Below are positions 38,982-52,311 of a DNA stretch of 64,000 nucleotides, one piece after another; the stretch's first letter is position 1; the number at the start of each line of letters is the position of its first letter. The DNA lies in assembly GCA_017557535.1 (NCBI GenBank), contig JAFYYM010000073.1, positions 1-64,000 on the forward strand, written 5' to 3'. The stretch is from Bacteroidales bacterium (GTDB taxonomy: Bacteria > Bacteroidota > Bacteroidia > Bacteroidales > UBA932). The notes below the pieces were generated by a model. The model made no database searches. It was given only the letters and a program-made list of their open reading frames with translations, and had not been told where the DNA came from. The translations under genes were made by a program, and so were the position numbers.

Positions 38982-40454
38982 ATGGTTTCATTCATCATCA
39001 GCATCATAGCCCTTATTCTGGGCTACCTTCTCTACGGCAAGTTCGTGGAGAATGTTTTCGGGCCTGACAGTAATCGACCTACCCCCGCTATCTCAAAGGC
39101 GGACGGTGTGGATTTTGTCGCGATGCCCACATGGAAAGTGTTCATGATCCAGTTCCTCAATATCGCGGGAACAGGACCTATCTTCGGAGCCATAATGGGC
39201 GCCAAGTTCGGTCCCGCCGCATATCTCTGGATCGTGTTCGGATGCATTTTCGCCGGAGCTGTCCATGACTACCTGAGCGGAATGATTTCCCTTAGGGAAG
39301 GTGGAGTGGGACTTCCTGAGATTATCGGTAAATACCTTGGCAAAGGGACGAGAAACGTGGTTCTCGTATTCACGGTGCTGCTGCTCGTACTCGTGGCGGC
39401 AGTGTTCGTTTACAGCCCCGCCATAATCCTCGGAGGCATGGCTGGCGATGGCAGTTCTTCATCCATAATGCTCTGGGTGGCGGTGATATTCATATATTAC
39501 TTTATCGCCACGATGCTCCCGATCGATAAGATCATCGGAAAGGTCTATCCCCTCTTCGCCTTCGCTCTAATTTTCATGGCGGTGGCTTTGATGGTGGGTC
39601 TTTTCATAAAATGGCCCTCTATTCCTGAGCTCTGGGAAGGGCTCGGCAACCGCGGCCCCTCTGTGGGGGTCACTGGGCAGCCCATCTTCCCCTGCCTATT
39701 CATCACCATCGCCTGCGGAGCTATCAGCGGATTCCACGCTACCCAGAGTCCGCTTATGGCCAGGTGCCTTAAGAACGAGAAGCTTGGACGGCCTGTTTTC
39801 TATGGTTCAATGATCACCGAGGGACTGGTCGCACTTGTATGGGCAGCCGTGTCCTCATATTTCTTCTTCGATGGAGGTGCCGCTGAGTGCGGATCCGACC
39901 TCACCGCTGCCGCACCCACTGTAGTGACCACAGTCTCAAAGAGTTGGCTCGGCATCCTGGGAGGAATTCTGGCGATACTTGGAGTCGTGGCCGCCCCCAT
40001 CACGAGTGGTGACACCGCTTTGAGGAGCACCAGGCTCATCATTTCTGATTTCCTGAGATTCGATCAGAAACCGATACGCAACAGGCTGCTGGTCAGCATC
40101 CCGTTGTTCATCGTCACGGCTTTGCTCCTTTGGTTCAACATATCCGATTCCAACGGTTTCAACACGATCTGGAGATACTTCGGATGGGCCAACCAGACTC
40201 TCGCGGTATTCACGCTTTGGGCAATCACAGTTTATCTCATCAATAACAAGAAGGGTCTGTGGTACCTCATCAGCGGAATCCCGGCTGGTTTCATGACCGC
40301 CGTGAGCATCACCTTCATCCTGGTCGATAAGGTGGGATTCCGTGTCAATGCCTCCTTGGCTCCTTGGATCGGATTGATCACCTTCGCGGCGGCAGGCGTC
40401 CTGCTTTCCTGCCTGAAAATGCGGCATGATTCAAAACAGAAAGACAATAAATAA
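38982..40454 (+). CDS. cstA: Carbon starvation protein CstA, short form
   Basis: A 490-aa polytopic inner-membrane protein of the CstA family, which imports peptides or pyruvate in studied bacteria. The ATG at 38982 begins MVSFIISIIALILGYLLYGK; a longer frame adds 31 residues that would start upstream of the promoter box and is rejected. Family landmarks include NIAGTGPIFGAIMGAKFGP, HDYLSGMISLREGG and SGFHATQSPLMARCLKNE. It is shorter than the roughly 700-aa E. coli protein, as is usual in Bacteroidota. The HerA-like gene begins 11 bp downstream. Confidence 0.93.
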   Translation: MVSFIISIIALILGYLLYGKFVENVFGPDSNRPTPAISKADGVDFVAMPTWKVFMIQFLNIAGTGPIFGAIMGAKFGPAAYLWIVFGCIFAGAVHDYLSGMISLREGGVGLPEIIGKYLGKGTRNVVLVFTVLLLVLVAAVFVYSPAIILGGMAGDGSSSSIMLWVAVIFIYYFIATMLPIDKIIGKVYPLFAFALIFMAVALMVGLFIKWPSIPELWEGLGNRGPSVGVTGQPIFPCLFITIACGAISGFHATQSPLMARCLKNEKLGRPVFYGSMITEGLVALVWAAVSSYFFFDGGAAECGSDLTAAAPTVVTTVSKSWLGILGGILAILGVVAAPITSGDTALRSTRLIISDFLRFDQKPIRNRLLVSIPLFIVTALLLWFNISDSNGFNTIWRYFGWANQTLAVFTLWAITVYLINNKKGLWYLISGIPAGFMTAVSITFILVDKVGFRVNASLAPWIGLITFAAAGVLLSCLKMRHDSKQKDNK

Positions 40455-40465
40455 ACAACGAAGAT

Positions 40466-42097
40466 ATGTACGACAACACCCACGGGCTTTGGATAGCCCA
40501 TTGCGACAAAGGACCGCTCTCGATTGTCGGGAAGATGGCCAACAGACACGGACTTGTGGCCGGAGCAACCGGAACCGGTAAGACAGTCACCCTCCAGGTC
40601 ATGGCTGAAAGCTTCTGCCAGGCCGGTGTGCCTTGCTTCATGGCGGATATGAAGGGCGACCTCTCAGGAATATCCCAACCAGGAAAGACCAGCAGCTTCA
40701 TCGAGAAGAGAATGCCGGAATTCGGGATAGAGAACCCTGAGTTCCAGAGCTGCCCGGTACGTTTCTACGATGTATTCGGGGAGCAGGGTCACCCGATGAG
40801 GTGCACCATTTCCCAGATGGGACCCCAGCTTCTCACCCGTATTCTCGGCCTGTCAGACGCACAGGAGGGAGTGCTTAACATCATGTTCAGGATAGCCGAC
40901 GAGAGAGGGTTGCTCCTTGACGACATCAAGGATATGAGGGCGTGCCTCAACTATATCTCCGAGCACGCTTCCGAGTATTCGCAGATGTACGGTAATATTG
41001 CCTCTGTGTCAGTAGGAGGCATTCAGAGGGCTCTGCTCACCCTTGAGAACGAGGGTGCGGACAAGTTCTTCGGACAACCTTCATTCGACATCATGGACCT
41101 TCTCGCCGTTGAGGGTAACAAGGGTGTGATGAGCGTCCTGGCAGCGGACAAACTGATGCTCAAGCCTAAGCTCTATTCCACATTCCTGCTATGGCTTCTC
41201 TCCGAGTTGTACGTCACCCTTCCTGAGGTCGGTGATATGGATCTTCCCAGACTGGTCTTCTTCTTCGATGAGGCCCATATGCTCTTCGACGACACCTCTA
41301 AGGCTCTTGTCGACAAGATTGAGCAGGTCGTGCGCCTGATCCGAAGCAAGGGTGTGGGAGTGTATTTCGTGACCCAAAGCCCCACTGACATCCCCTACAA
41401 CATCCTCGGCCAGCTTGGTAATCGTGTCCAGCACGCCCTGCGCGCCTTTACACCTCGCGACCAGAAGGCGGTTCAAGTTGCCGCTGACACCTTCAGGACC
41501 AACCCCGAGTTCAACACCTACGAGGCGATCACGAACCTTGCCACAGGTGAGGCCTTGGTCTCGTTCCTTGACGATAAGGGAGCTCCCAGCATTGTCGAGA
41601 AAGCGAAGGTTCTCTTCCCCTTGAGCCAGATCGGAGCCATCGATCCCAGCCAGAGGTCGCAGATCATCAACCGCTCAAGGGTATACGGCAAATATGACAA
41701 GCTTCTTGAGAGGGATAGCGCATTCGAGGTCCTTATGGCTGAGAAAGAAAGGCAAATCAAGGAAGCCGAGCAGGAGAAAGCCGGGAAGGAATCCCGCAAA
41801 TCCAAGGGTGATGACGTCGAGGAAGTCAAATCCACCAAGGCGACCAAGATGCCGAAGACTTCCACAAAGAAGAAGAACAGCGTGATGAGCAAGGTTGTGA
41901 AGGCTGTCATTACCGCTGTCACCGCCACCGCGGCCACCGCCATCGGCAACGAGGTCTCGAACAAAGTGACCGGCAAGAAGTCCAAGACAACGACGAAGGA
42001 CAGCGCCGGCAAGGTCGTGAAGAACGCAACCAGTGCCGCCACACGTACCATCACCCGGGAGATCACCCGCTCTATCCTCGGAAACCTGGGGAAATAG
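40466..42097 (+). CDS. HerA-like ATPase (DUF853/YjgR family)
   Basis: A 543-aa cytoplasmic ATPase. Walker A is GATGTGKT at residues 33-40, Walker B is FFFDEAHMLFDD, and a sensor-like VYFVTQSPTDIPYNILGQLG and RVQHALRAFTP segment follow, as in the DUF853 branch of HerA/FtsK-type motors. The role of this branch is not established; DNA processing is assumed from HerA. Residues from about 425 to the end are low-complexity Lys, Thr and Ala, with coiled-coil-like KEAEQEKAGKESRKS and several TTKKK-type basic runs. The structured repeat element begins 6 bp after the stop. Confidence 0.88.
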   Translation: MYDNTHGLWIAHCDKGPLSIVGKMANRHGLVAGATGTGKTVTLQVMAESFCQAGVPCFMADMKGDLSGISQPGKTSSFIEKRMPEFGIENPEFQSCPVRFYDVFGEQGHPMRCTISQMGPQLLTRILGLSDAQEGVLNIMFRIADERGLLLDDIKDMRACLNYISEHASEYSQMYGNIASVSVGGIQRALLTLENEGADKFFGQPSFDIMDLLAVEGNKGVMSVLAADKLMLKPKLYSTFLLWLLSELYVTLPEVGDMDLPRLVFFFDEAHMLFDDTSKALVDKIEQVVRLIRSKGVGVYFVTQSPTDIPYNILGQLGNRVQHALRAFTPRDQKAVQVAADTFRTNPEFNTYEAITNLATGEALVSFLDDKGAPSIVEKAKVLFPLSQIGAIDPSQRSQIINRSRVYGKYDKLLERDSAFEVLMAEKERQIKEAEQEKAGKESRKSKGDDVEEVKSTKATKMPKTSTKKKNSVMSKVVKAVITAVTATAATAIGNEVSNKVTGKKSKTTTKDSAGKVVKNATSAATRTITREITRSILGNLGK

Positions 42098-42102
42098 CAC
42101 AT

Positions 42103-42213
42103 CCGGGGCAGACAATACCCCCGCCAACCACTGCCACCCTCGGCACGTTAAGAGGGAGGGACCCTTGGGGAGGGTCGCGAAGCGACGGTTGGCGGGGGTA
42201 TTGTCTGCCCTGG
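42103..42213 (-). repeat. Structured palindromic element, copy 1
   Basis: It fills the gap between the convergent HerA-like and rsmD genes. The outer arms 42106-42129 and 42187-42210 form a perfect 24-bp inverted repeat. The 57-nt core between them, read on the minus strand, contains CGCTTCGCG near its start and CTTAACGTGCCGAGGG near its end. It is closely related to the core of copy 2 at 50.1 kb (57 versus 59 nt), whereas the outer arms have unrelated sequence. Inner hairpins are GTCGC/GCGAC, GACCCT/AGGGTC (mutually exclusive with the first) and CCCTC/GAGGG with a 10-nt loop. There is no T tract, so it is not a standard terminator. Confidence 0.85.
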
Positions 42214-42219
42214 TGGAAG

Positions 42220-42750
42220 CTATTCGAAGAAGGAGAAGTGCACCCGACCGTAGCGCTTCTCCTTTTTGAAGCGTGGGTGGTCGACGAAAGAGTGCTCGTC
42301 ACCATGCTCAAGGATCAGGTAGCAGCCAGGATGGAGTATATCCTGGGCGAAAACTTTGTCTGGAATAGTCTCCAAGCCTTCCAACGCATAAGGGGGATCG
42401 GCGAAGATGATATCGAACTTCTCGTGACAGATAGGAAGGAAGTCGAACACATTGTCCCTGACCATCACCACGTTGTCCAGACCGAGTCTCTGAGCCTCCC
42501 TCTTGATGAATGAGGCGTTCTCTCTCACCATCTCTACGGAATAGACCTTGGAGGCACCCCTGGAGGCGAACTCGAAAGCCACGGCACCAGTACCTCCAAA
42601 AAGATCGAGAACCTTCAGGTCCTCGAACTCATATTCATTGTTGAGTACATTGAAGAGGCCTTCCCGCGCGAAGTCGGTAGTGGGACGAGCCTTGAAACCT
42701 GCGGGAGGATTAATGCTTTTCCCTTTAAGACGACCGCCTATGATCCTCAT
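42220..42750 (-). CDS. rsmD: 16S rRNA (guanine966-N2)-methyltransferase
   Basis: Methylates G966 of 16S rRNA in the 30S subunit. The 176-aa protein starts MRIIGGRLKGKSINPP and has RPTTDFAREGLFNVL, the SAM-binding motif VLDLFGGTGAVAFE and the catalytic FADPPYAL (DPPY). Its ATG overlaps the stop of the DUF3822 gene by 4 bp, the usual Bacteroidota pairing. Confidence 0.95.
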   Translation of the reverse strand: MRIIGGRLKGKSINPPAGFKARPTTDFAREGLFNVLNNEYEFEDLKVLDLFGGTGAVAFEFASRGASKVYSVEMVRENASFIKREAQRLGLDNVVMVRDNVFDFLPICHEKFDIIFADPPYALEGLETIPDKVFAQDILHPGCYLILEHGDEHSFVDHPRFKKEKRYGRVHFSFFE

Positions 42751-43232
42751 AATCTCTCGACTGACTTGAAATAGCGGTAGAGGGACATCTCTTCCTCCCC
42801 GGAAAGATCGGTCAGGAAATGAACCGCGGATACCTCAGGGTTAAGCTGAAGCTTCTTCACAGCCATGAAAAGGAAATACTCGGCCGTTGTGAAATCAGCG
42901 GCCTCAAAAGTGTTGGCCAGCAATAAGTTCTCTCCCTGGGCGATCACAAGGGTCAGGACATGGTCGCCGTATGAGGCCAAAACCTTGTTATATTCCTTAA
43001 TGTCCGGGAGTTTCTTCAGGAGATGGTACATGTCCGGGTACCCGTCCCCGTCGGAAGGTTCCATGTCCTGAGAAAGAGAATACACCAGTTCGGCGGATAA
43101 CTCCGGCAAACTGATGTATTCGACTTTGTCTTCCCGGTTGAGCGCAACCGTCCGCGACAATATCTCCCGGGCTGAAGCCGGGTCAAAAAACGCGGTTGGT
43201 ACCAGCGCCACCTTGGGGGTGTGACGTGCCAT
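42747..43232 (-). CDS. DUF3822-type protein, N-terminally short
   Basis: A 161-aa protein whose KVALVPTAFFDPASAREIL and C-terminal FLFMAVKKLQLNPEVSAVHF match the middle and end of DUF3822, a Bacteroidota family usually encoded before rsmD. Family members are generally about 260 aa, so roughly the first 80-100 residues are absent. No upstream coding continuation exists, because the preceding gene's stop lies only 8 bp before the ATG at 43232. The DUF3822 fold resembles actin/ASKHA proteins but has no known function. It could be a natural short form or a decayed one. Confidence 0.65.
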   Translation of the reverse strand: MARHTPKVALVPTAFFDPASAREILSRTVALNREDKVEYISLPELSAELVYSLSQDMEPSDGDGYPDMYHLLKKLPDIKEYNKVLASYGDHVLTLVIAQGENLLLANTFEAADFTTAEYFLFMAVKKLQLNPEVSAVHFLTDLSGEEEMSLYRYFKSVERL

Positions 43233-43240
43233 GCACGAGA

Positions 43241-43957
43241 CTACTCCCAGTTACCAGCGTTGTTGTTCGGGGCGGTGATACTACCGACCTGAAGGCCTTC
43301 GTACTGGCCGAGATCCTCACGCTCAGCGACAAGGTTCACGACAAGCTGGTGGTTGAGGCCGTTCAACAGAGACTTGTACGGCATCTTAGCCTCGAACAGA
43401 GGAACATCGACACCGGAGACCTTCTTCACGATGGCGTTCATCTCGACATCCTGAATCTCCGCCGCACCGTATTCACCGACTGCGAAAGGAATCTTGTCAA
43501 GCCTGTTGATGTCGAAATCTTGCCTACCCTTGAATAGGGTATCCTTGACGGCGATCTTGTTCTGGATTGAGAATACCAGATTATTGTCGCCCTCCTGATA
43601 GAGCTTGAAGAGATCCGCGTCTGTGATCTTGCCTTTTTTAGCCTTCTTGACCGCGTTGGTGTGAGCCATGGCCAGGGAGTCATCCTTTGAGCCGATCTGC
43701 ATGAGAACGATCATCTCTCCGGTGTTGTAGAACTGCTTCAGAGTGTCGAAAGACGCGGTGAAGCGGTCATTTACGCTCTTGTAAGCCACCTGCAGGTCAC
43801 GGATGTCCTTAAGCTGCTGGATGGCCACTTTCTTTCTGGCATTGACATCTTTCTCGAACCTGACGGGTTCCATGACACCTTCGTAAATCTTGTACACGAG
43901 GAACACGCAGATAAGCGCGAGCACGATGCTGAGAATCGTTTTTAGAGCCTTGTTCAT
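43241..43957 (-). CDS. Single-pass membrane protein of unknown function
   Basis: A 238-aa protein with an N-terminal transmembrane helix (about residues 5-24, TILSIVLALICVFLVYKIY). A long probably periplasmic region follows, with a helical start (VNARKKVAIQQLKDIRDLQ) reminiscent of pilin-like or gliding/secretion-associated proteins, then a mixed C-terminal domain. No catalytic motif is recognised. It appears to be a conserved Bacteroidales type, placed before DUF3822-rsmD and probably cotranscribed (8-bp gap). A full two-box promoter precedes it. Confidence 0.7.
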   Translation of the reverse strand: MNKALKTILSIVLALICVFLVYKIYEGVMEPVRFEKDVNARKKVAIQQLKDIRDLQVAYKSVNDRFTASFDTLKQFYNTGEMIVLMQIGSKDDSLAMAHTNAVKKAKKGKITDADLFKLYQEGDNNLVFSIQNKIAVKDTLFKGRQDFDINRLDKIPFAVGEYGAAEIQDVEMNAIVKKVSGVDVPLFEAKMPYKSLLNGLNHQLVVNLVAEREDLGQYEGLQVGSITAPNNNAGNWE

Positions 43958-44012
43958 TATTATTGATATTTATGATTTGCTTTCCATGAACCGACAATCC
44001 GCCAATTCTGGA

Positions 44013-44043
44013 CAAAGTTAGAAAATTGATTTATGATATGCAA
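44013..44043 (-). promoter_or_regulatory. Promoter for the 43.9-kb membrane protein-DUF3822-rsmD operon
   Basis: Minus-strand TTG (44041-44043), 20-nt spacer, TAACTTTG (44013-44020), an exact match to both boxes, about 56 nt before the ATG. Confidence 0.55.
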
Positions 44044-44066
44044 TATAATATTTGTAATATTATTCG

Positions 44067-44074
44067 TAATTTTG
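44067..44074 (+). promoter_or_regulatory. -7 box for nrnA
   Basis: TAATTTTG on the plus strand ends 9 nt before the ATG at 44084. A leader of only a few nucleotides would result. No TTG at 19-21 nt. Confidence 0.4.
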
Positions 44075-44083
44075 CTCCCGCGA

Positions 44084-45121
44084 ATGGATAAGATCGACAA
44101 ACTGAACTCTCTTGTGAGCGCTTCCACACGCATCTGCGTGACAGCTCACATCCACCCTGACGGAGACGCTTTGGGAAGCGGTCTCGCCCTTGTCGGCTAT
44201 TTGAGGGAATGCCGCGGCAAGGACGTCGCCCTTGTCGTCCCGGATGGCGTGCCGGAGTCTCTAAGCTTCATTCAATGCGGCTTCGGAGATGGTTCTGTCT
44301 TATCCTTTGAGGAGAGTCCCACCCTGTCGAAAGCCAGAATAGAGAACAGCGACCTTATCTTCTGTCTCGACTGCTCATCTTTCTCCCGCACCAATCCGGA
44401 CATTGAATCGATGGCGAAGGCGTCCGAAGCTCCTAAAATCCTCATTGACCACCATCTCAACCCGGACACATCTTCTTTCTCCCTCGTTTTCTCAGAAATT
44501 GAGATCTCCTCGACATGCGAGCTTCTTTACCGGATACTCAAGGAGATGCCGGACATCAAGGGGGATCTCGACAAGCTGCCGATGAGCACACTGGAGGCAT
44601 TGATGACAGGAATGACAACGGACACGAACAATTTCGCCAACTCTGTCTTCCCAGGCACCATGCGGATGGCTTCGGAACTGATCGCGGCTGGTGTGGACAG
44701 GGAAAGGATCCTTTCAGACCTGTACAATAACTACAGGGAGAACCGGCTGAGATTGATAGGATACCTGCTCACGGAAAACATGGTCATTTCATCCGAGGGT
44801 GCCGCTGTCATGATCCTTGACAAAGAGTGTCAGGACAGGTTTGATTTCAGGCAAGGCGAGAGCGAGGGCTTCGTGAATATGCCGCTCGCTGTCCGCGACG
44901 TCAAGATCAGCTTGTTCCTCACGGAAGAGAACGGGAAATTCCGGGTGTCAATCAGGTCAAAACATGGCATATCAGCCAACAAACTGGCTATGACATACTT
45001 CCACGGAGGAGGACATGAGATGGCGGCCGGGGGAAGATTGTATTTCCCTGAGGATATTCCCTCGCCAAAGGACGCGAAGGCACACATATTGAAAGTGACA
45101 AAGGAGTTTTTAGCGAGATGA
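44084..45121 (+). CDS. nrnA: NrnA-type DHH phosphoesterase (oligoribonuclease/pAp phosphatase)
   Basis: Degrades nanoRNAs and dephosphorylates 3'-phosphoadenosine 5'-phosphate in Gram-positive relatives. The ATG at 44084 gives 345 aa; a longer frame adds 17 hydrophobic residues upstream of the promoter box. The DHH motifs are present: AHIHPDGDALGSG, FCLDCSSF and ILIDHHLNPD. The DHHA1 domain ends with KLAMTYFHGGGHEMAAGG (GGGH). It heads a run of overlapping genes encoding FKBP lipoproteins and a MATE transporter; the next ATG overlaps its stop. Confidence 0.9.
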   Translation: MDKIDKLNSLVSASTRICVTAHIHPDGDALGSGLALVGYLRECRGKDVALVVPDGVPESLSFIQCGFGDGSVLSFEESPTLSKARIENSDLIFCLDCSSFSRTNPDIESMAKASEAPKILIDHHLNPDTSSFSLVFSEIEISSTCELLYRILKEMPDIKGDLDKLPMSTLEALMTGMTTDTNNFANSVFPGTMRMASELIAAGVDRERILSDLYNNYRENRLRLIGYLLTENMVISSEGAAVMILDKECQDRFDFRQGESEGFVNMPLAVRDVKISLFLTEENGKFRVSIRSKHGISANKLAMTYFHGGGHEMAAGGRLYFPEDIPSPKDAKAHILKVTKEFLAR

Positions 45122-45666
45122 GAAGGTTATCATTGTTATTCATATTCTCCGCGACAGCGCTTCTGGTCGCCTCATGCGGCAAGAAGCAGCTCGAGTCCGT
45201 GTATGACAAGCAGGAGAGTAACATCGAGGCTATCATCTCGAATCTGACTAAAAGCAACCCTGACGCCACTGTGGAGCTCAACGACGGGATCGCGAAGGTG
45301 ACTGTGGCTCAAGGAGAAGGCACTCCACTAAGCGAGAATGGGGCCGTGGCTTTCTATTACGCCGGCTACTTCATCTCAGGCAAAAATCTGAGCAACAGCA
45401 ACCTTTTCGCCACCAACTACGAGACATTCGCCAACTCCATTAAATGGAACGTCTCGGACACCACCGCTTTCGGGATCATGACCATAAGACTTGACGAAAG
45501 CGATATCGTGGAAGGTTTGAGGAAAGGTTTGCCCGGAGTAAAAGGAGGCGAGGAGTGCTATATACTTTTCAACGGCAAACGAGGATTCGGCAAGAAGAAA
45601 ATAGCGAATGTTCCATCTAATGCCGCTCTGGCCTGGCATTTGTGGATTAAGAGCGTCAGCGATTAA
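45118..45666 (+). CDS. FKBP-like lipoprotein
   Basis: A 182-aa protein with lipobox LVASC (Cys20). The domain from about residue 55 has VTVAQGEGTPLSENGAVAFY and YAGYFISG, the strand pattern of FKBP-type prolyl isomerases, then DIVEGLRKGLPGVKGGEECY and IPSNAALAW-like ending (VPSNAALAWHLWIKSV). Some active-site aromatics are replaced, so catalytic activity is uncertain. It probably acts as a periplasmic folding factor. It overlaps nrnA by 4 bp and the next gene starts directly after its stop. Confidence 0.8.
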   Translation: MRRLSLLFIFSATALLVASCGKKQLESVYDKQESNIEAIISNLTKSNPDATVELNDGIAKVTVAQGEGTPLSENGAVAFYYAGYFISGKNLSNSNLFATNYETFANSIKWNVSDTTAFGIMTIRLDESDIVEGLRKGLPGVKGGEECYILFNGKRGFGKKKIANVPSNAALAWHLWIKSVSD

Positions 45667-46719
45667 ATGAATGAAAGTTTTTTTATGAATATATCGACAC
45701 AAAGAGTAACACTTGCCTGCGGGTTAGCAGCCGCCATTATGGTCGTCCTGTCAGGCTGCGCGAAAGAAAGCTCAATTGACACCAGCAGCGTGGAGAAGGA
45801 GTATATGAAGGCATGGATCGGAGCCAACCATCCCGGAGTCTCCGCTTCCGGTCGGGGAATCTATATCCTCGAGGACGTACCCGGTTCTGGTGCCGCGGTG
45901 ACAGATGACGATTTCTACCTTTTCATCGAATACACTTCCACTGATCTTAAAGGTAATGTCAGCGGGACTTCCTCAAAGAAACTCTCACAGCAGATAGGCT
46001 CTTACAACCCCACATATTACTACGGCGACCAGATCCTCATAAAGGATGAGGCTTATACCCAAGTGGGATTGATGGACTTGATTGACGGTATGAGGATAGG
46101 AGGAAAGCGTGTCGGTGTGATTCCCGGATGGCTGAATGTGGTACAGAAAGACTACAACAACAAAGTATCAGGCAGCAACTCCATTTACACCATTACCCTC
46201 AAGGATAAGACTGAGGATATCACCGCCTGGGAGATTGACACTCTCTCGAGATACGTCGCGGTCCACATGCCTGGTGTAGACTCAACGTTTTACGGGTACT
46301 ATTGCAAGACCTTGAAAGAGCCCACCTCCGAAAGTACATTCTCCTCAGACACGACGTATTACATCAACTATACCGGTCGTCTCCTCAACGGACAAGTGTT
46401 TGACACCACGGTCGAGGACACCGCCAAAGTGTACGGATTCTACTCAAACAAAAAGACTTATCAGCCGACGATGGTGACCCCTTCGGACGATGATGACTAC
46501 ACCAAAATAACCATCGGAGGCACTGACACCTCAGAGGGAACCACCGTGGTCAAGGGATTCGCCTACTGTTTGTCGAAGCTCAGGCCTTTTGAGAAGGTCA
46601 CGTGCGCCTTCTATTCCGATCTCGGTTATGGGTATTCAGGATCAGGATCCACCATTCCGAAGTTCGCTCCGATAGTCTTTGATATCGAGGTCGTCGAAAA
46701 GCCATCTGACGATGACTGA
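45667..46719 (+). CDS. Lipoprotein with FKBP-type prolyl isomerase domain(s)
   Basis: A 350-aa protein; the alternative start at 45685 fits the signal peptide better (lipobox LSGC, Cys25 from that Met). The N-terminal half looks like a degenerate FKBP domain (YILEDVPGSGAAVTDDDFYL, LMDLIDGMRIGGKRVGVIPG). The C-terminal half is a clearer FKBP domain (YYINYTGRLLNGQVFDTTVE, VVKGFAYCLSKLRPFEKVTC, DLGYGYSGSGSTIPKFAPIV). Predicted to be lipid-anchored in the periplasm. It overlaps the MATE gene by 8 bp. Confidence 0.85.
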   Translation: MNESFFMNISTQRVTLACGLAAAIMVVLSGCAKESSIDTSSVEKEYMKAWIGANHPGVSASGRGIYILEDVPGSGAAVTDDDFYLFIEYTSTDLKGNVSGTSSKKLSQQIGSYNPTYYYGDQILIKDEAYTQVGLMDLIDGMRIGGKRVGVIPGWLNVVQKDYNNKVSGSNSIYTITLKDKTEDITAWEIDTLSRYVAVHMPGVDSTFYGYYCKTLKEPTSESTFSSDTTYYINYTGRLLNGQVFDTTVEDTAKVYGFYSNKKTYQPTMVTPSDDDDYTKITIGGTDTSEGTTVVKGFAYCLSKLRPFEKVTCAFYSDLGYGYSGSGSTIPKFAPIVFDIEVVEKPSDDD

Positions 46720-48112
46720 TAATCATCTGGCACCAACCGAGTTAGGAACAGAGAAAGTAGGCAGCCTTCTTAAGAGATACGCGGTCCCTGGCATCATCGC
46801 CATGACCGCGTCTTCTTTGTATAATATGGTGGACAGCATCTTCATCGGACATATTCCCGGCGAAGGTTCACTGGCTCTGTCCGGTCTGGCTGTCACTTTC
46901 CCTTTGATGAACCTGAGCACTGCTTTGGGTACACTGGTTGGAGTCGGTGCGGCAACTCTCATCTCCGTTCTTCTAGGGCAGAAGAACTATCAGGCCGCAA
47001 ACAAGGTGCTGGCGAATGACATCAGCCTCAACTGCCTAACCGGCATCATCTTCGCCGCGGTGTGCCTGGTGTTCCTCGATCCTATCCTGACCTTCTTCGG
47101 AGCGAGTCCCAACACCCTCCCTTTTGCCAGGGAATACATTACAGTGATCCTTTTGGGGAATGTCATCACCCACCTGTACTTCGGCCTTAACGCCTTGATC
47201 CGATCCTCGGGCAATCCCCGGCTGGCGATGAGGCTGACCTTGTTCACGGTCATATCCAACACAATACTCGATCCGATATTCATTTTCGTTCTCGGAATGG
47301 GTATCCAAGGAGCCGCCATCGCCACTGTTCTATGCCAGACTATGGCCTTATCCTACTCCCTTAGATATTTCACAAGGAAAGACAACCTCCTGAGACTGCC
47401 CAAGGGGATATTCGATCTGGATTGGAGAATCGCCAAAGACTCCCTCGCCATAGGTATGGGGCCATTCCTCATGAACTCGGCGTCTTGCATAGTCACGATG
47501 TTCATCAACCAGCAGCTCCTTAAATACGGCGGGGACCTCGCCATCGGAGCGTATGGAATCGCGAACAGGATCAACTTCATGTTCATTATGGTGGTGATGG
47601 GATTCAACCAGGGGATGCAGCCTATCGCCGGCTATAATTTCGGGGCCCTTAAGTATTCAAGAGTCAAGAAAGTGTTCAAACTGACCGCTTTATGGGCCAC
47701 CGGGGTGTGCATGCTGTGGTTTGTGGCCTCGGAATTCTTCCCAGGTGTGATGGTCAAGGTATTCACTAATGATCCCGAGCTTATAGACTTAGCCGATAAA
47801 GGATTAAGGTTGATGAACCCGGTTGTGATCCTGGTCGGATGGCAGATGGTATCGACTAACTTCTTCCAAAGCCTCGGGATGGTCGGGAAATCAATTTTCC
47901 TGTCCTTGAGCAGACAACTCCTGTTCCTTGTGCCGCTGATCTATGTGCTGCCGCTGTTTATGGGGACAAAAGGGGTCTTCTTCTCATTCCCGGCCTCTGA
48001 CCTTATTGCCTGCATCACTACTCTCGTATTGATTCACAATTTGTTCCGCAAGTTCAGTAAACTTCAGGACGGGGACCCGCCCACTATACTCGGAAGCAAG
48101 ATAAAACAATAA
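46712..48112 (+). CDS. MATE-family efflux transporter
   Basis: A 466-aa inner-membrane antiporter with 12 predicted helices, from the ATG at 46712 that overlaps the FKBP stop. NorM/DinF-branch features are visible: MTASSLYNMVDSIFIGHIPG in helix 1, LGTLVGVGAATLISVLLGQK, and the second-half repeat GMGPFLMNSASCIVTMFINQ with FNQGMQPIAGYNFGA. Family members export cationic drugs or metabolites in exchange for Na+ or H+. The substrate is not readable. Confidence 0.92.
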   Translation: MTDNHLAPTELGTEKVGSLLKRYAVPGIIAMTASSLYNMVDSIFIGHIPGEGSLALSGLAVTFPLMNLSTALGTLVGVGAATLISVLLGQKNYQAANKVLANDISLNCLTGIIFAAVCLVFLDPILTFFGASPNTLPFAREYITVILLGNVITHLYFGLNALIRSSGNPRLAMRLTLFTVISNTILDPIFIFVLGMGIQGAAIATVLCQTMALSYSLRYFTRKDNLLRLPKGIFDLDWRIAKDSLAIGMGPFLMNSASCIVTMFINQQLLKYGGDLAIGAYGIANRINFMFIMVVMGFNQGMQPIAGYNFGALKYSRVKKVFKLTALWATGVCMLWFVASEFFPGVMVKVFTNDPELIDLADKGLRLMNPVVILVGWQMVSTNFFQSLGMVGKSIFLSLSRQLLFLVPLIYVLPLFMGTKGVFFSFPASDLIACITTLVLIHNLFRKFSKLQDGDPPTILGSKIKQ

Positions 48113-48118
48113 CCAGAT

Positions 48119-48733
48119 ATGAGTGACAAACACACCATAATCAATATCGGCCGCCAATACGGCAGTGGCGGGAAAGAGGTCGCCACAACTATCGGCAAAG
48201 CCCTTGGGATAGAGGTGTATGACAACGAACTGATCTCCAAGGCAGCTGAGGAGAGTGGATTCAGCAAGGAGGTATTTGAAAGAAGTGACGAGAGGAGAAG
48301 CGTCTTCAACCTGTTTTCCTTCTTTGGCACAGAAAGGTTTGGAAGCTCCCAGAACTACATGGGTGACAATGAGTTATTCAAGATCCAAAGTGAAGTGATC
48401 AGGGGTATAACGGATAAGGGCCCGGCAATTTTCGTTGGCAGATGCTCCAACTATATACTAAGGGACAAGACATGTCTGGATGTTTTCGTGTCCGCCCCTC
48501 TTGAGGCCAGGGTAGCCAGAGTGATGGGAAGACTTGGAATCAGTGAGGATGAGGCCAAGACTCGTATTGAAAGGCAGGACCGCACCAGACAGACTTACTA
48601 CAACTTCTTCACTTTCGGCAACTGGGGCGCAGCCTCAGATTACGACATGTGTGTGGACTCGTCCATATTGGGCATAGAAGGTACAGCTGACCTGATCGTT
48701 GATTTCGGCAGAAAGGCCGGATTGATATTCTGA
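48119..48733 (+). CDS. Cytidylate kinase-like family protein
   Basis: A 204-aa P-loop protein with INIGRQYGSGGKEVATTIGK (Walker A-like GSGGKE near residue 16), VGRCSNYIL and RVMGRLGISEDEAKTRIERQ with the Arg-rich LID. This is the cytidylate kinase-like family (PF13189), distinct from the true CMP kinase Cmk. Substrate is not known. It lies 6 bp after the MATE gene and 14 bp before the serine hydrolase gene. Confidence 0.85.
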   Translation: MSDKHTIINIGRQYGSGGKEVATTIGKALGIEVYDNELISKAAEESGFSKEVFERSDERRSVFNLFSFFGTERFGSSQNYMGDNELFKIQSEVIRGITDKGPAIFVGRCSNYILRDKTCLDVFVSAPLEARVARVMGRLGISEDEAKTRIERQDRTRQTYYNFFTFGNWGAASDYDMCVDSSILGIEGTADLIVDFGRKAGLIF

Positions 48734-48747
48734 TAACCTTAGAGTAA

Positions 48748-50037
48748 ATGAGGATGACTAAAAGAACGAGAATCATCGTCGCGTCAACGCTCACACTGTT
48801 GATCCTCGCGACTGTCGCTATGACTTCCAGTTTCGGCGGCAAGGAACAGGCTGTACGGCGGCTTCCTGTCAACCTCAATGAGACCCTGACCAATGAGGTC
48901 TCCGACACCGCCACATTAAGAGGGTTTGACAGACAAGTCAAAGACTACATGACCGCATGGGGATTGAAAGGCGTGTCGCTCTCTGTCATGCGCAATGACT
49001 CCCTGTTATATTCCAAAGGATATGGATGGGCTGATGATAAGGAACCGATGGAGCCCAGCCATATCATGAGAATGGCTTCAGTGTCGAAGTTGATAACGGC
49101 TGTCGGGATAATGATACTTCAGGAGAGAGGAATGCTCACCTTGAAGGACCAGGTTTTCGGCCCTGGAGGGATCCTTGATGACTCGCTCTACAATGCTGCG
49201 ATAGCCGACACCCTATACAAGAAAATCACTGTAGAGGATCTCTTGCGCCACAAGGGAGGCTTCTCGAAGAAGGGAGGGGATCCGATGTTCTCGACCAGAT
49301 GGTTAATGATGCAGAACCGCTGGAAAGATGTCCCCACCAAGGAACAGCTCACTGTGGTACAGTTGAAAAGGCCCCTCAATTTCGAACCCGGAACTTGGCA
49401 GGATTATTCCAACTACGGTTACCTGGCGCTTTCCATGGTCATCGAGAAACTGTCAGGGATGTCATACGAGGATTTCATCCAGGAAAACGTCTTTCACCCT
49501 GCTGGATGCGTGAATTTCAAGATAGCCGGGAACTATTATGCGGACAAGCATCCAGGAGAGACTCGATACTATGTCCAGAAAGATGACGAACCTGTAGAGG
49601 AGTTCAACAACAGCGGAAGAAAAGTGACCAGGAGCTACGGGGGCAACAATGTCACTGGATTGCTCGGGGCCGGGGCATGGGTAGGTTCCACGCCTGAGCT
49701 CGCACTGTTTGTGGCCTCGATTGATGGCAAGCCGGAGGTGCCGGACATCATAAGCGAGGCAAGCGTCAAAGCCATGACCGAGTATTTCGACCCGGACACT
49801 TTCTCTCTTGGCTGGAACGACACCAAGCCTACCGGAGAATGGACCCGCACCGGGACATTCGCAGGCACAAGTGCCCTTGTGAAGTATTTCCCTGACGGGG
49901 AGTGCTGGGTCTTCATATCCAACACCAGCACATATAAAGGCCCGGGCCTCGCGAAGTTCACGACCGAACTCTTTGAGAATCTCCGGGCCTCCTATTCCAC
50001 AAAATTCCCGAAACGGAATCTCTTCTACGCGGAATAA
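48748..50037 (+). CDS. Serine hydrolase, class C beta-lactamase/DD-peptidase fold
   Basis: A 429-aa protein with an N-terminal membrane anchor or uncleaved signal (about residues 7-27). The penicillin-binding fold motifs are visible: SxxK at Ser111-Lys114 (SVSK in MASVSKLITAVG), Tyr220-Ser-Asn222 (YSNYGYLAL), and a C-terminal HTG-like position replaced by RTGTFAGTS. Family members hydrolyse peptides, esters or peptidoglycan stems; true beta-lactamase activity should not be assumed. An in-frame ATG two codons later is an alternative start. The second structured repeat element begins right after its stop. Confidence 0.85.
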   Translation: MRMTKRTRIIVASTLTLLILATVAMTSSFGGKEQAVRRLPVNLNETLTNEVSDTATLRGFDRQVKDYMTAWGLKGVSLSVMRNDSLLYSKGYGWADDKEPMEPSHIMRMASVSKLITAVGIMILQERGMLTLKDQVFGPGGILDDSLYNAAIADTLYKKITVEDLLRHKGGFSKKGGDPMFSTRWLMMQNRWKDVPTKEQLTVVQLKRPLNFEPGTWQDYSNYGYLALSMVIEKLSGMSYEDFIQENVFHPAGCVNFKIAGNYYADKHPGETRYYVQKDDEPVEEFNNSGRKVTRSYGGNNVTGLLGAGAWVGSTPELALFVASIDGKPEVPDIISEASVKAMTEYFDPDTFSLGWNDTKPTGEWTRTGTFAGTSALVKYFPDGECWVFISNTSTYKGPGLAKFTTELFENLRASYSTKFPKRNLFYAE

Positions 50038-50040
50038 CCG

Positions 50041-50158
50041 CTGCGCCAAGAGACCTCCCTCCATGAACCGCCGCTTCGCGGCCCTTCCCTAAAGGGCCCC
50101 TCCCTCTTAACGTGCCGAGGGTGGCAGTGGTTCAAGGAGGGAGGTCTCTTGGTGCGAC
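50041..50158 (+). repeat. Structured palindromic element, copy 2
   Basis: It fills the gap between the convergent serine hydrolase and phosphotransacylase genes. Outer arms 50044-50069 and 50129-50156 pair over about 25 bp with one mismatch and a small bulge. The 59-nt core (50070-50128) matches the copy 1 core on the opposite strand. Its second half, from CCTCCCTCTTAACGTG through GGCAGT, is identical to copy 1. Inner hairpins are GCCGC/GCGGC and GGCCCTT/AAGGGCC, which share bases and exclude each other, plus CCCTC/GAGGG. The base pairs differ from copy 1 in a compensating way. No T tract follows on either strand. Confidence 0.85.
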
Positions 50159-50163
50159 TGACG

Positions 50164-51075
50164 CTATTTGTTGACGAACATCACCGCCTCGGCGATGGAG
50201 TTCAGCTTGGTGTCCACGCTGTCAGCGCGGCTGGCAAGCACGCAAGGCGCAGTGGTTCCGACCAGCATACCGGCCTGACGGACGCCCGTGGCCAGCTTGG
50301 AGTTGGTCTTCCAGAACACATTGGCAGACTCGATGTTAGGGAACTGGAGGCAATCGGCGTCTCCAGCCACGGGGCTGACAAGCTTCTTGATCTGTACGGA
50401 CTCCTGATCGATAGCGACATCCAAGGCTAGAGGGCCATCAGCCACACAACCCTTGATCTGTCCACGATCACACATCTTAGCGAGCTGGGCGGCCTCGACG
50501 CAAGCCGGCATCGAGTCGAGCATCTGCTCGGAGGCCGCGATGAAGGCAAGCTTAGGTTTCTCGATTCCGAATGACTTGGCCACACCCACAAGGTAACCAG
50601 CTATCTTGACCTTCTGACGGAAATCCGGAAGAGGAATGACAGCCATGTCAGAGAGGAAGAGAAGCTTATGATAGTTAGGGTTCTCGATGACTCCGACGTG
50701 GCTCAGGACGCCCTTCGGAGGGAGAAGACCAGTCTCCTTATTGAGGATGGCGCGCAGGAACTTGTCTGTGGAGCAAAGACCCTTCATCAAAACATCACCG
50801 TCACCATCGTGAACCAGCTGCACAGCCTTGGAGACAGCCTTCAGCTCAACCGGCTCATTAACGATGTCGAACATCTCGATGTCGATGCCAAGCTTTTCGC
50901 AAGTCTGAGCGATAAGGTTCTTGTCTCCGACAAGTGTAACCTTCACAAAACCCATCTCGGAAGCCTTGGCGCAGGCCTCAATAGTGTGCTCATCCACGGC
51001 CCAAGCCGCGATCATCTTCTTGCAGATACCCTTTTCTTTGAGCTCCGCGAAAACATCAGCGAATTTAGTGATCAT
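50164..51075 (-). CDS. Phosphate acyl(butyryl/acetyl)transferase
   Basis: A 303-aa protein of the Pta/Ptb family, converting acyl-CoA and phosphate to acyl phosphate and CoA. The short length and the TSTDKFLRAILNKETGL-type segment (GLCSTDKFLRAILNKETG) resemble phosphate butyryltransferase rather than the longer Pta. A family-typical C-terminal region with KTNSKLATGVRQAGMLVGTT is present. It lies 21 bp after ackA, so it probably makes acetyl phosphate for acetate formation, with butyryl activity possible. The gene order is ackA first. Confidence 0.85.
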   Translation of the reverse strand: MITKFADVFAELKEKGICKKMIAAWAVDEHTIEACAKASEMGFVKVTLVGDKNLIAQTCEKLGIDIEMFDIVNEPVELKAVSKAVQLVHDGDGDVLMKGLCSTDKFLRAILNKETGLLPPKGVLSHVGVIENPNYHKLLFLSDMAVIPLPDFRQKVKIAGYLVGVAKSFGIEKPKLAFIAASEQMLDSMPACVEAAQLAKMCDRGQIKGCVADGPLALDVAIDQESVQIKKLVSPVAGDADCLQFPNIESANVFWKTNSKLATGVRQAGMLVGTTAPCVLASRADSVDTKLNSIAEAVMFVNK

Positions 51076-51096
51076 TGTTATATGGTTATCAGATTA

Positions 51097-52311
51097 TTAT
51101 TCATCGATACTCTGGACAAGATGCATCGTGTCACGAGCAATGACAAGTTCCTCATCCGTGGTCACGAGAGCGACCTTGACCTTTGACTCCGGCAGAGAGA
51201 TCACGGTGTCTACTCCCCATGCGGTGTTCGCCTCATAATCGAAAGCGAGACCAAGATATGTGAAGTTCTCACAGACTCTGCGGCGCAGGCGGCTGTTGTG
51301 TTCCCCGATTCCTCCGGTGAAGAAAATGGCATCCACGCCATTCATCTCCGCGACAAAGGCTCCGATATACTTGATCATCTGGAAAGAGAGCATCTTCAGG
51401 GTCAGCTTGGCCTTGAAGTCTCCCCCATTCGCCAGCTCATCCATCTCGCGGGCATCAGATGTCTTTTGGGAGACTCCGAGGAAACCACTTTTCTTGTTCA
51501 CCAGTGTGTACATCTCATCCGGAGAGATGTTCTCTTTTTTCATAATGTACAGGATGGCGTTCGGATCCACGTCTCCACACCTGGTTCCCATGATGAGTCC
51601 CTCAAGTGGAGTGAGACCCATGGAAGTGTCGATGGATTTACCGTTATGGATAGCTGTGATGGAGCTTCCATTACCGATATGGCAGGTTATGATTCTTGAC
51701 TCATTGACATCAAGCCCGACCATCTTGGCGCCTTTGTTAGCCACGAACTGATGGCTGGTGCCATGGGCTCCGTAACGGCGGATATGATACTTCTCATAAT
51801 ACTCGTACGGAAGGCCGTACATGTAAGCCTGGGGAGGCATCGTCTGGTGGAAAGCTGTGTCAAAAGTGACCACCTGGGGCACATTGGGCAGCACTTCCTG
51901 GCAAGCCCTTATACCCAGAAGGTGGGCGGGATTATGGAGCGGGGCGAAATCACAGCAGAAATCTATCTTCGACAAAACGTCCTCATCGACTATGGCGCTG
52001 CCAGAGAAAAAGTCGGCACCCTGGACGATCCTGTGACCTACAGCCTCGATATCCTCGAATGATTTCAGCACTCCGTAATCCTTATCCACAAGGGCGTCAA
52101 GCACCAGCTGCATACCGACAGTATGGTCAGGAATATAAAGATCTTTGACGACCTTATCCCTACCGATAGGAGTGTGCTGCAGTCTTCCGGACTCAAGTCC
52201 GATTTTCTCCACTATACCCTTGGCCAGCAAGTCATAAACGTCATCGCTTCTCATGTCAAGCAACTGGTACTTGATCGAGGAGCTTCCGCAATTGATAACA
52301 AGAATGATCAT
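51097..52311 (-). CDS. ackA: Acetate kinase
   Basis: Makes acetate and ATP from acetyl phosphate. The 404-aa protein has the signature INCGSSSIKYQLLDM at the N terminus, VGHRIVQGADFF, FDTAFHQTMPPQAYMYGLP, RRYGAHGTSHQFVA and the second signature FFTGGIGEHNSRLRRRV near the C terminus. Length is normal. A two-box promoter lies 30 nt upstream, overlapping the divergent comEC start. Confidence 0.97.
   Translation of the reverse strand: MIILVINCGSSSIKYQLLDMRSDDVYDLLAKGIVEKIGLESGRLQHTPIGRDKVVKDLYIPDHTVGMQLVLDALVDKDYGVLKSFEDIEAVGHRIVQGADFFSGSAIVDEDVLSKIDFCCDFAPLHNPAHLLGIRACQEVLPNVPQVVTFDTAFHQTMPPQAYMYGLPYEYYEKYHIRRYGAHGTSHQFVANKGAKMVGLDVNESRIITCHIGNGSSITAIHNGKSIDTSMGLTPLEGLIMGTRCGDVDPNAILYIMKKENISPDEMYTLVNKKSGFLGVSQKTSDAREMDELANGGDFKAKLTLKMLSFQMIKYIGAFVAEMNGVDAIFFTGGIGEHNSRLRRRVCENFTYLGLAFDYEANTAWGVDTVISLPESKVKVALVTTDEELVIARDTMHLVQSIDE

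Follow-up and report, generated by a model that had tools for sequence, protein, structure and literature searches.

We analysed a 64,000-nt stretch of Bacteroidales DNA (the window) in which the gap between two convergent ORFs (42098–42219) is occupied almost entirely by a palindrome, copy 1. What is this palindrome, and how do its ends remain complementary? A scan for inverted repeats with arms of at least 18 nt and a spacing of up to 150 nt confirmed the repeat across the gap that the initial annotation had described, with arms of 27 nt that are 96% complementary and 57 nt between them (Table 1). Outside these arms, AATAGC (42093–42098) can also pair with GCTATT (42219–42224). The core of copy 1 recurs in reverse at 50066–50132 (91%), and the two share a 25-mer, CCCTCTTAACGTGCCGAGGGTGGCA, that was found twice at a chance expectation of 0. 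The second copy gave an inverted repeat with 32-nt arms (50043–50074 and 50124–50155) that are 88% complementary. The three other inverted repeats from the same scan are short palindromes with overlapping arms. Both the reverse recurrence of the core near 50070–50128 and the lack of any relationship between the arms of the two copies had been noticed earlier, and both observations stood.

Table 1. Positions of the two copies of the element and their parts in the window
Feature	Position	Strand	Remarks
Left arm, copy 1	42103–42129	+	locus-specific; pairs with 42187–42213
Probable H-type pseudoknot, copy 1	42130–42156	+	
Pseudoknot stem S1, copy 1	42130–42135 with 42142–42148		ACTGCC with GGCACGT
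Pseudoknot stem S2, copy 1	42137–42141 with 42152–42156		CCCTC with GAGGG
Pseudoknot linker, copy 1	42149–42151		TAA
Two more core hairpins, copy 1	42157–42186	+	
Right arm, copy 1	42187–42213	+	
Copy 1 by covariance model R1	42107–42209	+	90.4 bits; own sequence included in model
Right arm (element orientation), copy 2	50043–50069	-	
Core, copy 2	50070–50128	-	pseudoknot at 50102–50128
Left arm (element orientation), copy 2	50129–50155	-	
Copy 2 by covariance model R1	50047–50151	-	91.4 bits; own sequence included in model

The initial annotation had proposed a family of two copies. It turned out that the element is an insert of about 110 nt with 27 dispersed copies in the genome to which the window belongs (G000). 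The search with a 65-nt core gave 28 places, one of which (L028; 14 nt, E 2.3) was counted as a chance match. An additional degenerate site (L053) has unpaired arms. Within one Bacteroidales genus, the core was matched at a cut-off of 1e-8 in 79 of 300 genomes, G000 included, and several of these genomes hold a dozen or more copies each. When 247 genomes of the order were searched with a covariance model, the element was found in G000 and in 3 of the 246 others (one of the same family, two of other families), and model R1 matched none of 394 others among 395 genomes of the phylum, both searches having used stricter filters with which weak matches are lost. An exact 21-mer scan of named genomes gave at least 113 stretches. 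The titles of the matches listed are Bacteroidales or Bacteroidia metagenome-assembled genomes, and the sources named among them are the rumen or omasum of yak, goat, water buffalo and roe deer, reindeer, and one sample of horse faeces. The 21-mer was not found in viral contigs, and plasmids and phages gave no match to the element. In the open-licence literature searched, there was no description of such an element in Bacteroidales. Further copies with paired arms thus exist in this genome and in related Bacteroidales, which was the outcome that the initial annotation needed for its idea of an element.

We determined how general the pairing of the arms is. Among 162 distinct copies, 153 have an arm-pairing score of at least 12; when arms were swapped between copies, the maximum was 11.5 and none of the 162 passed. 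The 153 paired copies contain 3950 Watson-Crick cells, 114 G.T and 65 A.C. The number of aligned arm columns had a median of 27 (range 19–41). The genomes named in the 21-mer scan are metagenome assemblies, and chance palindromes or assembly artefacts had to be considered for this reason. Such an origin is practically dismissed by the swapped controls and refuted by the fact that assemblies from different projects contain the same sites with the same arms.

The sequence of the arms behaves differently from their pairing. Non-orthologous copies have arms that are little alike, almost regardless of how similar their cores are: the mean arm score was 5.58 for cores less than 80% identical (12,653 pairs), 5.84 at 80–90% (1567 pairs), 6.10 at 90–95% (275 pairs), 6.31 at 95–98.5% (118 pairs) and 5.86 above 98.5% (58 pairs), against 11.45 for 207 pairs of copies at the same site. 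One genome (G508) has three copies with near-identical cores and different arms. Sharing of arms also occurs. In G478, seven of the eight copies viewed share arms at different sites, and in the subfamily within coding sequence the inner arm (GGATGGCGAGACC) is common and mainly the outer arm is unique. Four copies of RUG14092 (L151, L165, L189, L191) have related arms (about GTGGAGTCTATAGGGGTTTGCAC), and two pairs of them have similar flanks; either local duplication or arms carried along in transposition would account for this. We looked for the source of the arms of 10 G000 copies in G000 itself and in RUG579 (G325), one of the two closest genomes. Orthologues were found and no other convincing match, except that 20 nt of the inner arm of L017 are common with a RUG579 copy at another site. 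A 92% match in RUG579 (G325:C217) was rejected as not being an element. The idea that each arm is a self-complementary mini-hairpin was also weak: 13% of 104 arms fell below 0.05 in mononucleotide shuffles.

To describe the fold of the core, we aligned 50 copies with unrelated arms out of 84 eligible ones, ten of the 60 considered having been left out for size (alignment A1). The structure named in Table 1 paired 88.0% of cells, compared with 72.4% in shuffled alignments and at most 45.5% when slid. Its covariation score was 0.391, against 0.139 in shuffles and at most 0.148 when slid, and was reached by none of 500 shuffles; the number of two-sided pairs was reached by 4 of 500 and that of further pair types by 5 of 500. 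In the outer stem all 14 pairs tested change on both sides, a pairing that is partly a matter of choice, since eligibility for A1 required paired arms and the usual core length, and for which the 153 of 162 copies are the unselected test. The initial annotation had suggested that pairing is kept while the arm sequence drifts, and both of these results support it. Stem S1 covaries at 3 of 6 pairs. S2 is nearly invariant (99.2% of cells paired), which gives no covariation for or against it. S1 and S2 interleave and would make an H-type pseudoknot if both formed at once; this is probable, although the two stems may instead be alternative folds. The choice of RNAalifold, a program unable to draw pseudoknots, is the outer stem and S2. 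In the G478 copies AGCC/GGCT at S1 is a further compensated change and S2 is mostly kept. Rfam gave nothing at the gathering cut-off in positions 40000–52000 of the window (E up to 5) and only an unrelated tRNA in 8 loci. The core is RNA-like and covarying, and no Rfam family matched it. One locus (L147, minus strand, about 3949) has a truncated core, the pseudoknot part only, directly against a perfect stem of about 20 bp.

Two features of the arms are one-sided. G.T mismatches exceed A.C mismatches in arms (73 against 45, P 0.006), which is a one-strand bias. In addition, 32 of 95 non-redundant copies have a 1-nt bulge on the right arm 11–17 bp out and none of the 95 has one on the left at that distance, although left-arm bulges do occur at other distances. 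The right-arm bulge was present in 16 of 60 copies outside open frames and in 15 of 31 inside them. It is possible to read these features as signs that each copy is a functional RNA element of the host, a regulatory or processing signal whose core and stem pairing are selected at every locus. The covariation of S1, the near-invariance of S2, the finding of related cores in other families that fold in the same way, and one site that in several species immediately precedes an apparent start codon also point in this direction.

The orientation and the host genes of the copies are harder to reconcile with a host signal. In G000, 18 of 27 copies, distributed over 16 genes, are traversed by a frame that stays open (that of L023 only as far as the contig end), and 9 lie between genes. 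No gene in G000 was seen split in two by a copy, and at L004 and L024 a neighbouring frame extends into the edge of the element. According to Pfam, the hosts are unrelated in function: aldehyde dehydrogenase, RsmF-like methyltransferase, 2-oxoacid dehydrogenase acyltransferase, methionine synthase (metH, with two copies), class-III aminotransferase, LytB/IspH (ispH), GHMP kinase, chorismate synthase (aroC), formyltransferase, Methyltransf_4, citrate lyase ligase/CitG, MatE, FtsK (ftsK), glycosyl hydrolase 3 (two copies), a periplasmic binding protein and a 4Fe-4S protein cut by the contig end. The orientation of the element relative to the gene is mixed (10 and 8 of 18), and one reading phase prevails in each orientation (9 of 10 and 7 of 8). 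In the wider set, 159 copies had sufficient flanking sequence, and 80 of them lie in an open frame, the prevailing phase being present in 31 of 37 and 35 of 43; in 19 of the 159 some open frame, which may or may not be a gene, ends within the element. In alignments with PDB sequences, the element together with its arms corresponds to extra residues, 49 of them in IspH and 58 in AroC; part of the AroC insert resembles an older remnant. The insert peptide predicted for the aminotransferase (L017) is GTLRGGIGASLCEASGGAELC. Conserved enzymes would carry tens of extra residues derived from a hairpin insert. In one open frame (L026:3-1820, plus strand) an LptF/LptG domain precedes a formyltransferase, an arrangement that resembles a gene fusion. 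The MetH linker of other species (L086, L095, L104) contains other repetitive-looking insertions where the core is absent, which suggests that this linker is a tolerant hot spot for insertions.

We compared occupied and empty sites. At ten sites chosen for contiguous flank matches in a relative, the sister species lacked the core in all ten alignments, and the arms had no counterpart either. The arm of L004 could not be scored; at the nine scorable sites the own arm fitted the empty sequence no better than foreign arms, of which 14 to 160 of about 162 matched as well (lowest at sites 13, 17 and 1). What is present at one site and missing from its counterpart is the complete hairpin, both arms together with the core. 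The second suggestion of the initial annotation, that the arms arise by inverted duplication of flanking DNA, is contradicted wherever it was tested. By eye, no obvious target-site duplication was seen in the empty-site alignments. Two more empty sites were found (L332, L339), and the L332 site is occupied in other species; some empty sites may be losses. At L341 the G000 flank matches the outer right arm, and flank duplication was considered there. It was rejected: another species (L155) has the element at that site with related arms, G000 retains an apparent arm remnant, and a deletion remnant in G000 is more likely.

The same comparison bears on whether mobility is confined to the core, which would enter the loops of pre-existing hairpins such as terminators, so that the arms belong to the site. 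Unrelated arms on near-identical cores would follow from this, the empty site of L017 is weakly palindromic, and at the L007 site G065 has a plain terminator-like hairpin. We regard it as decidedly unlikely in view of the ten empty sites without arms and the nine unmatched arms, of a bulge on one side at a set distance from the core in a third of the copies, and of the seven G478 copies that share arms at different sites.

Comparison with the two closest genomes, RGIG2644 (G320) and RUG579, revealed several sites with the same arms, several flips of the whole hairpin (e.g., L012, L025), partial deletions, and different arms at L007, L008 and L019. The L007 site has arms of type A in G000, RGIG2644 and G185, arms of type B in RUG579, G072 and G300, and no element in G175 or G032. 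In total, 111 of 196 same-site pairs have the same orientation and 85 the opposite one; these pairs are not independent, and near-identical re-fetches were dropped. Flips at the same site, together with sites gained or lost between close species, the mixed orientation relative to genes and the unrelated hosts, make a functional RNA element of the host unlikely.

The two arm types at L007, and likewise at site 8, are unrelated to each other and each is common with other species. It is possible to imagine that every insertion creates its arms anew, through fold-back synthesis as the element integrates, and that the inherited arms then drift slowly with compensated changes. This agrees with the weak dependence of arm similarity on core identity and with the finding that most arm sequences have no second copy in two genomes. 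A template for the arms was seen neither in the target nor in those two genomes, inner arms are partly common between loci in the coding subfamily, and the G478 copies share full arms; we consider this origin improbable.

The changes within arms at the same site are informative. The arms were unalignable in 61 of 111 same-orientation and 55 of 85 opposite-orientation pairs. In the 80 pairs with alignable arms, 1612 base pairs were unchanged, 129 were compensated doubles, 34 were single changes that still pair, 71 were single changes that break pairing, and 12 were other doubles. Compensated doubles (129) therefore outnumber singles (105), which again supports drift with retained pairing. The initial annotation had ascribed such drift to selection and missed an alternative: arms can stay complementary without selection through template switching. 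The copies within genes and the pseudoknot had also escaped it. According to passages in PMC8604942, template switching between inverted arms both homogenises the arms and inverts the spacer, and it is also discussed in part of PMC6649704 for the coding palindromes of Nematomorpha. It would account, without selection, for the compensated changes as well as the flips, and it leaves the one-sided features unexplained. The right bulge, the excess of G.T over A.C and the covarying core suggest that the fold of one strand matters, most simply for mobility.

We lean towards interpreting the insert as a mobile palindromic element, non-autonomous and working in the manner of the Rickettsia palindromic elements (RPEs), and the best reading is that its arms are kept complementary by template switching together with selection on shape. 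For mobility, the strand of the core would have to fold as a single strand (RNA or ssDNA), and the folded strand would be recognised by the core sequence and the shape of the stem (its length and right-side bulge) and not by the stem sequence. After insertion, DNA template switching between the arms would copy mutations from arm to arm and would also invert what lies between them. The arms would thus drift in concert, and the core, which has no mirror copy, would stay conserved. Copies within genes may survive because the element offers stop-free frames, presumably translated as a tolerated linker. The weakest point of this proposal is the presence of unrelated arms on near-identical cores: either arms turn over faster than cores, or they renew at insertion. 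Simple copy-and-drift does not predict that arm similarity hardly rises with core identity. Tract conversion might predict clusters of double changes, and these are not clustered (14 adjacent against 11.8 expected).

We also searched for a mobiliser. Y1 transposase (Y1_Tnp) genes were present in all eight carriers searched. There are several Y1-type (RAYT-like) genes per genome, some with their own REP-like arrays (L269, L267, L276, L279); the arrays beside Y1_Tnp genes are TGCCATGTGTGCCA and GGCAAGGTC/GACCTTGCC. As a mobiliser RAYT (Y1_Tnp) was rejected: at the 12 loci examined, out of 25 retrieved, the neighbouring palindromes show no apparent relation to the core. At one Y1_Tnp locus (L259) a variant core lies at a distance of about 1 kb. 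An autonomous copy with an internal ORF was sought by looking for a right arm up to 6 kb off at the listed copies with unpaired arms, and none was found.

The element can be compared with several known systems. Integron attC sites occur in cassette arrays, whereas these copies are dispersed in and between conserved genes. It does not resemble an intrinsic terminator either, with 18 of 27 copies inside genes and most right arms lacking a following T by eye, although L007 ends in T6. An imperfect stem is a feature that our element shares with REP hairpins. The terminal repeats of MITEs are conserved between copies. Conserved terminal inverted repeats were not found in our element, the exception being the seven G478 copies. 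Like MITEs (Correia/NEMIS, ERIC, RUP), it is non-autonomous, and MITEs are described in passages of PMC2229807 as about 100–200 bp long, with transcripts that form long stem-loops. It resembles REPs and the GTAG- and CGTC-tagged palindromes associated with RAYT, which, in the sections of PMC3733652 that treat them, are small many-copy hairpins, some inside genes. Unlike our element, REPs are 20–40 bp long and have a conserved tag. A RAYT gene flanked by the same repeat, as in REP systems, was not seen: the RAYT-like genes examined have other palindromes alongside. With the yeast template-switched inverted repeats it has in common concerted arms and spacer inversion (PMC8604942, in part), and with the mitochondrial palindromes of Nematomorpha perfect arms in coding sequence (PMC6649704, in part); neither of these consists of dispersed copies of one conserved core. 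The closest likeness is to RPEs and the Wolbachia palindromic repeats, which, according to passages in PMC2229807 and PMC10969869, are palindromes of about 105–150 bp located between genes and in frame in unrelated conserved genes. The presence of an in-frame palindromic repeat inside unrelated genes is likewise observed here (18 of 27 copies, with empty sites). RPEs, compared by description only, are described as families with a conserved peptide, while our element has locus-specific arms, a covarying probable pseudoknot as its core, and hosts among the Bacteroidales.

Thus the element is an unusual relative of the known protein-coding palindromes, with a conserved middle and ends that are site-specific and yet nearly always mirrored. 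To our knowledge, the spread of protein-coding palindromes is still unexplained. In one genus a given site can be found occupied or empty, with the hairpin flipped or with different arms, which makes mobility and arm maintenance testable by comparison. It is possible, although rather doubtful, that mobile structured-RNA (or ssDNA) elements of a new class are involved here. In such an element a pseudoknotted core would have to stand on a long duplex of free sequence, the complementarity of the stem and not its sequence would be the signal, and the hairpin would flip and its arms turn over inside translated genes.

Other inserts were seen at the same places. A different insert rich in palindromes (CTTCAAATTGGGGGCTAGGCCGCCCCC...) has taken the place of part of the core at L385 (E2 site, G185) and L383 (G065). 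At L391, L396, L397 and L319 another repeated hairpin, (GT)CATCCTGAGCG(A)AGCGAAGGATCT, lies at or beside the same insertion sites, and its GAGCGAAGCGA loop resembles the hairpin loops of the element core.
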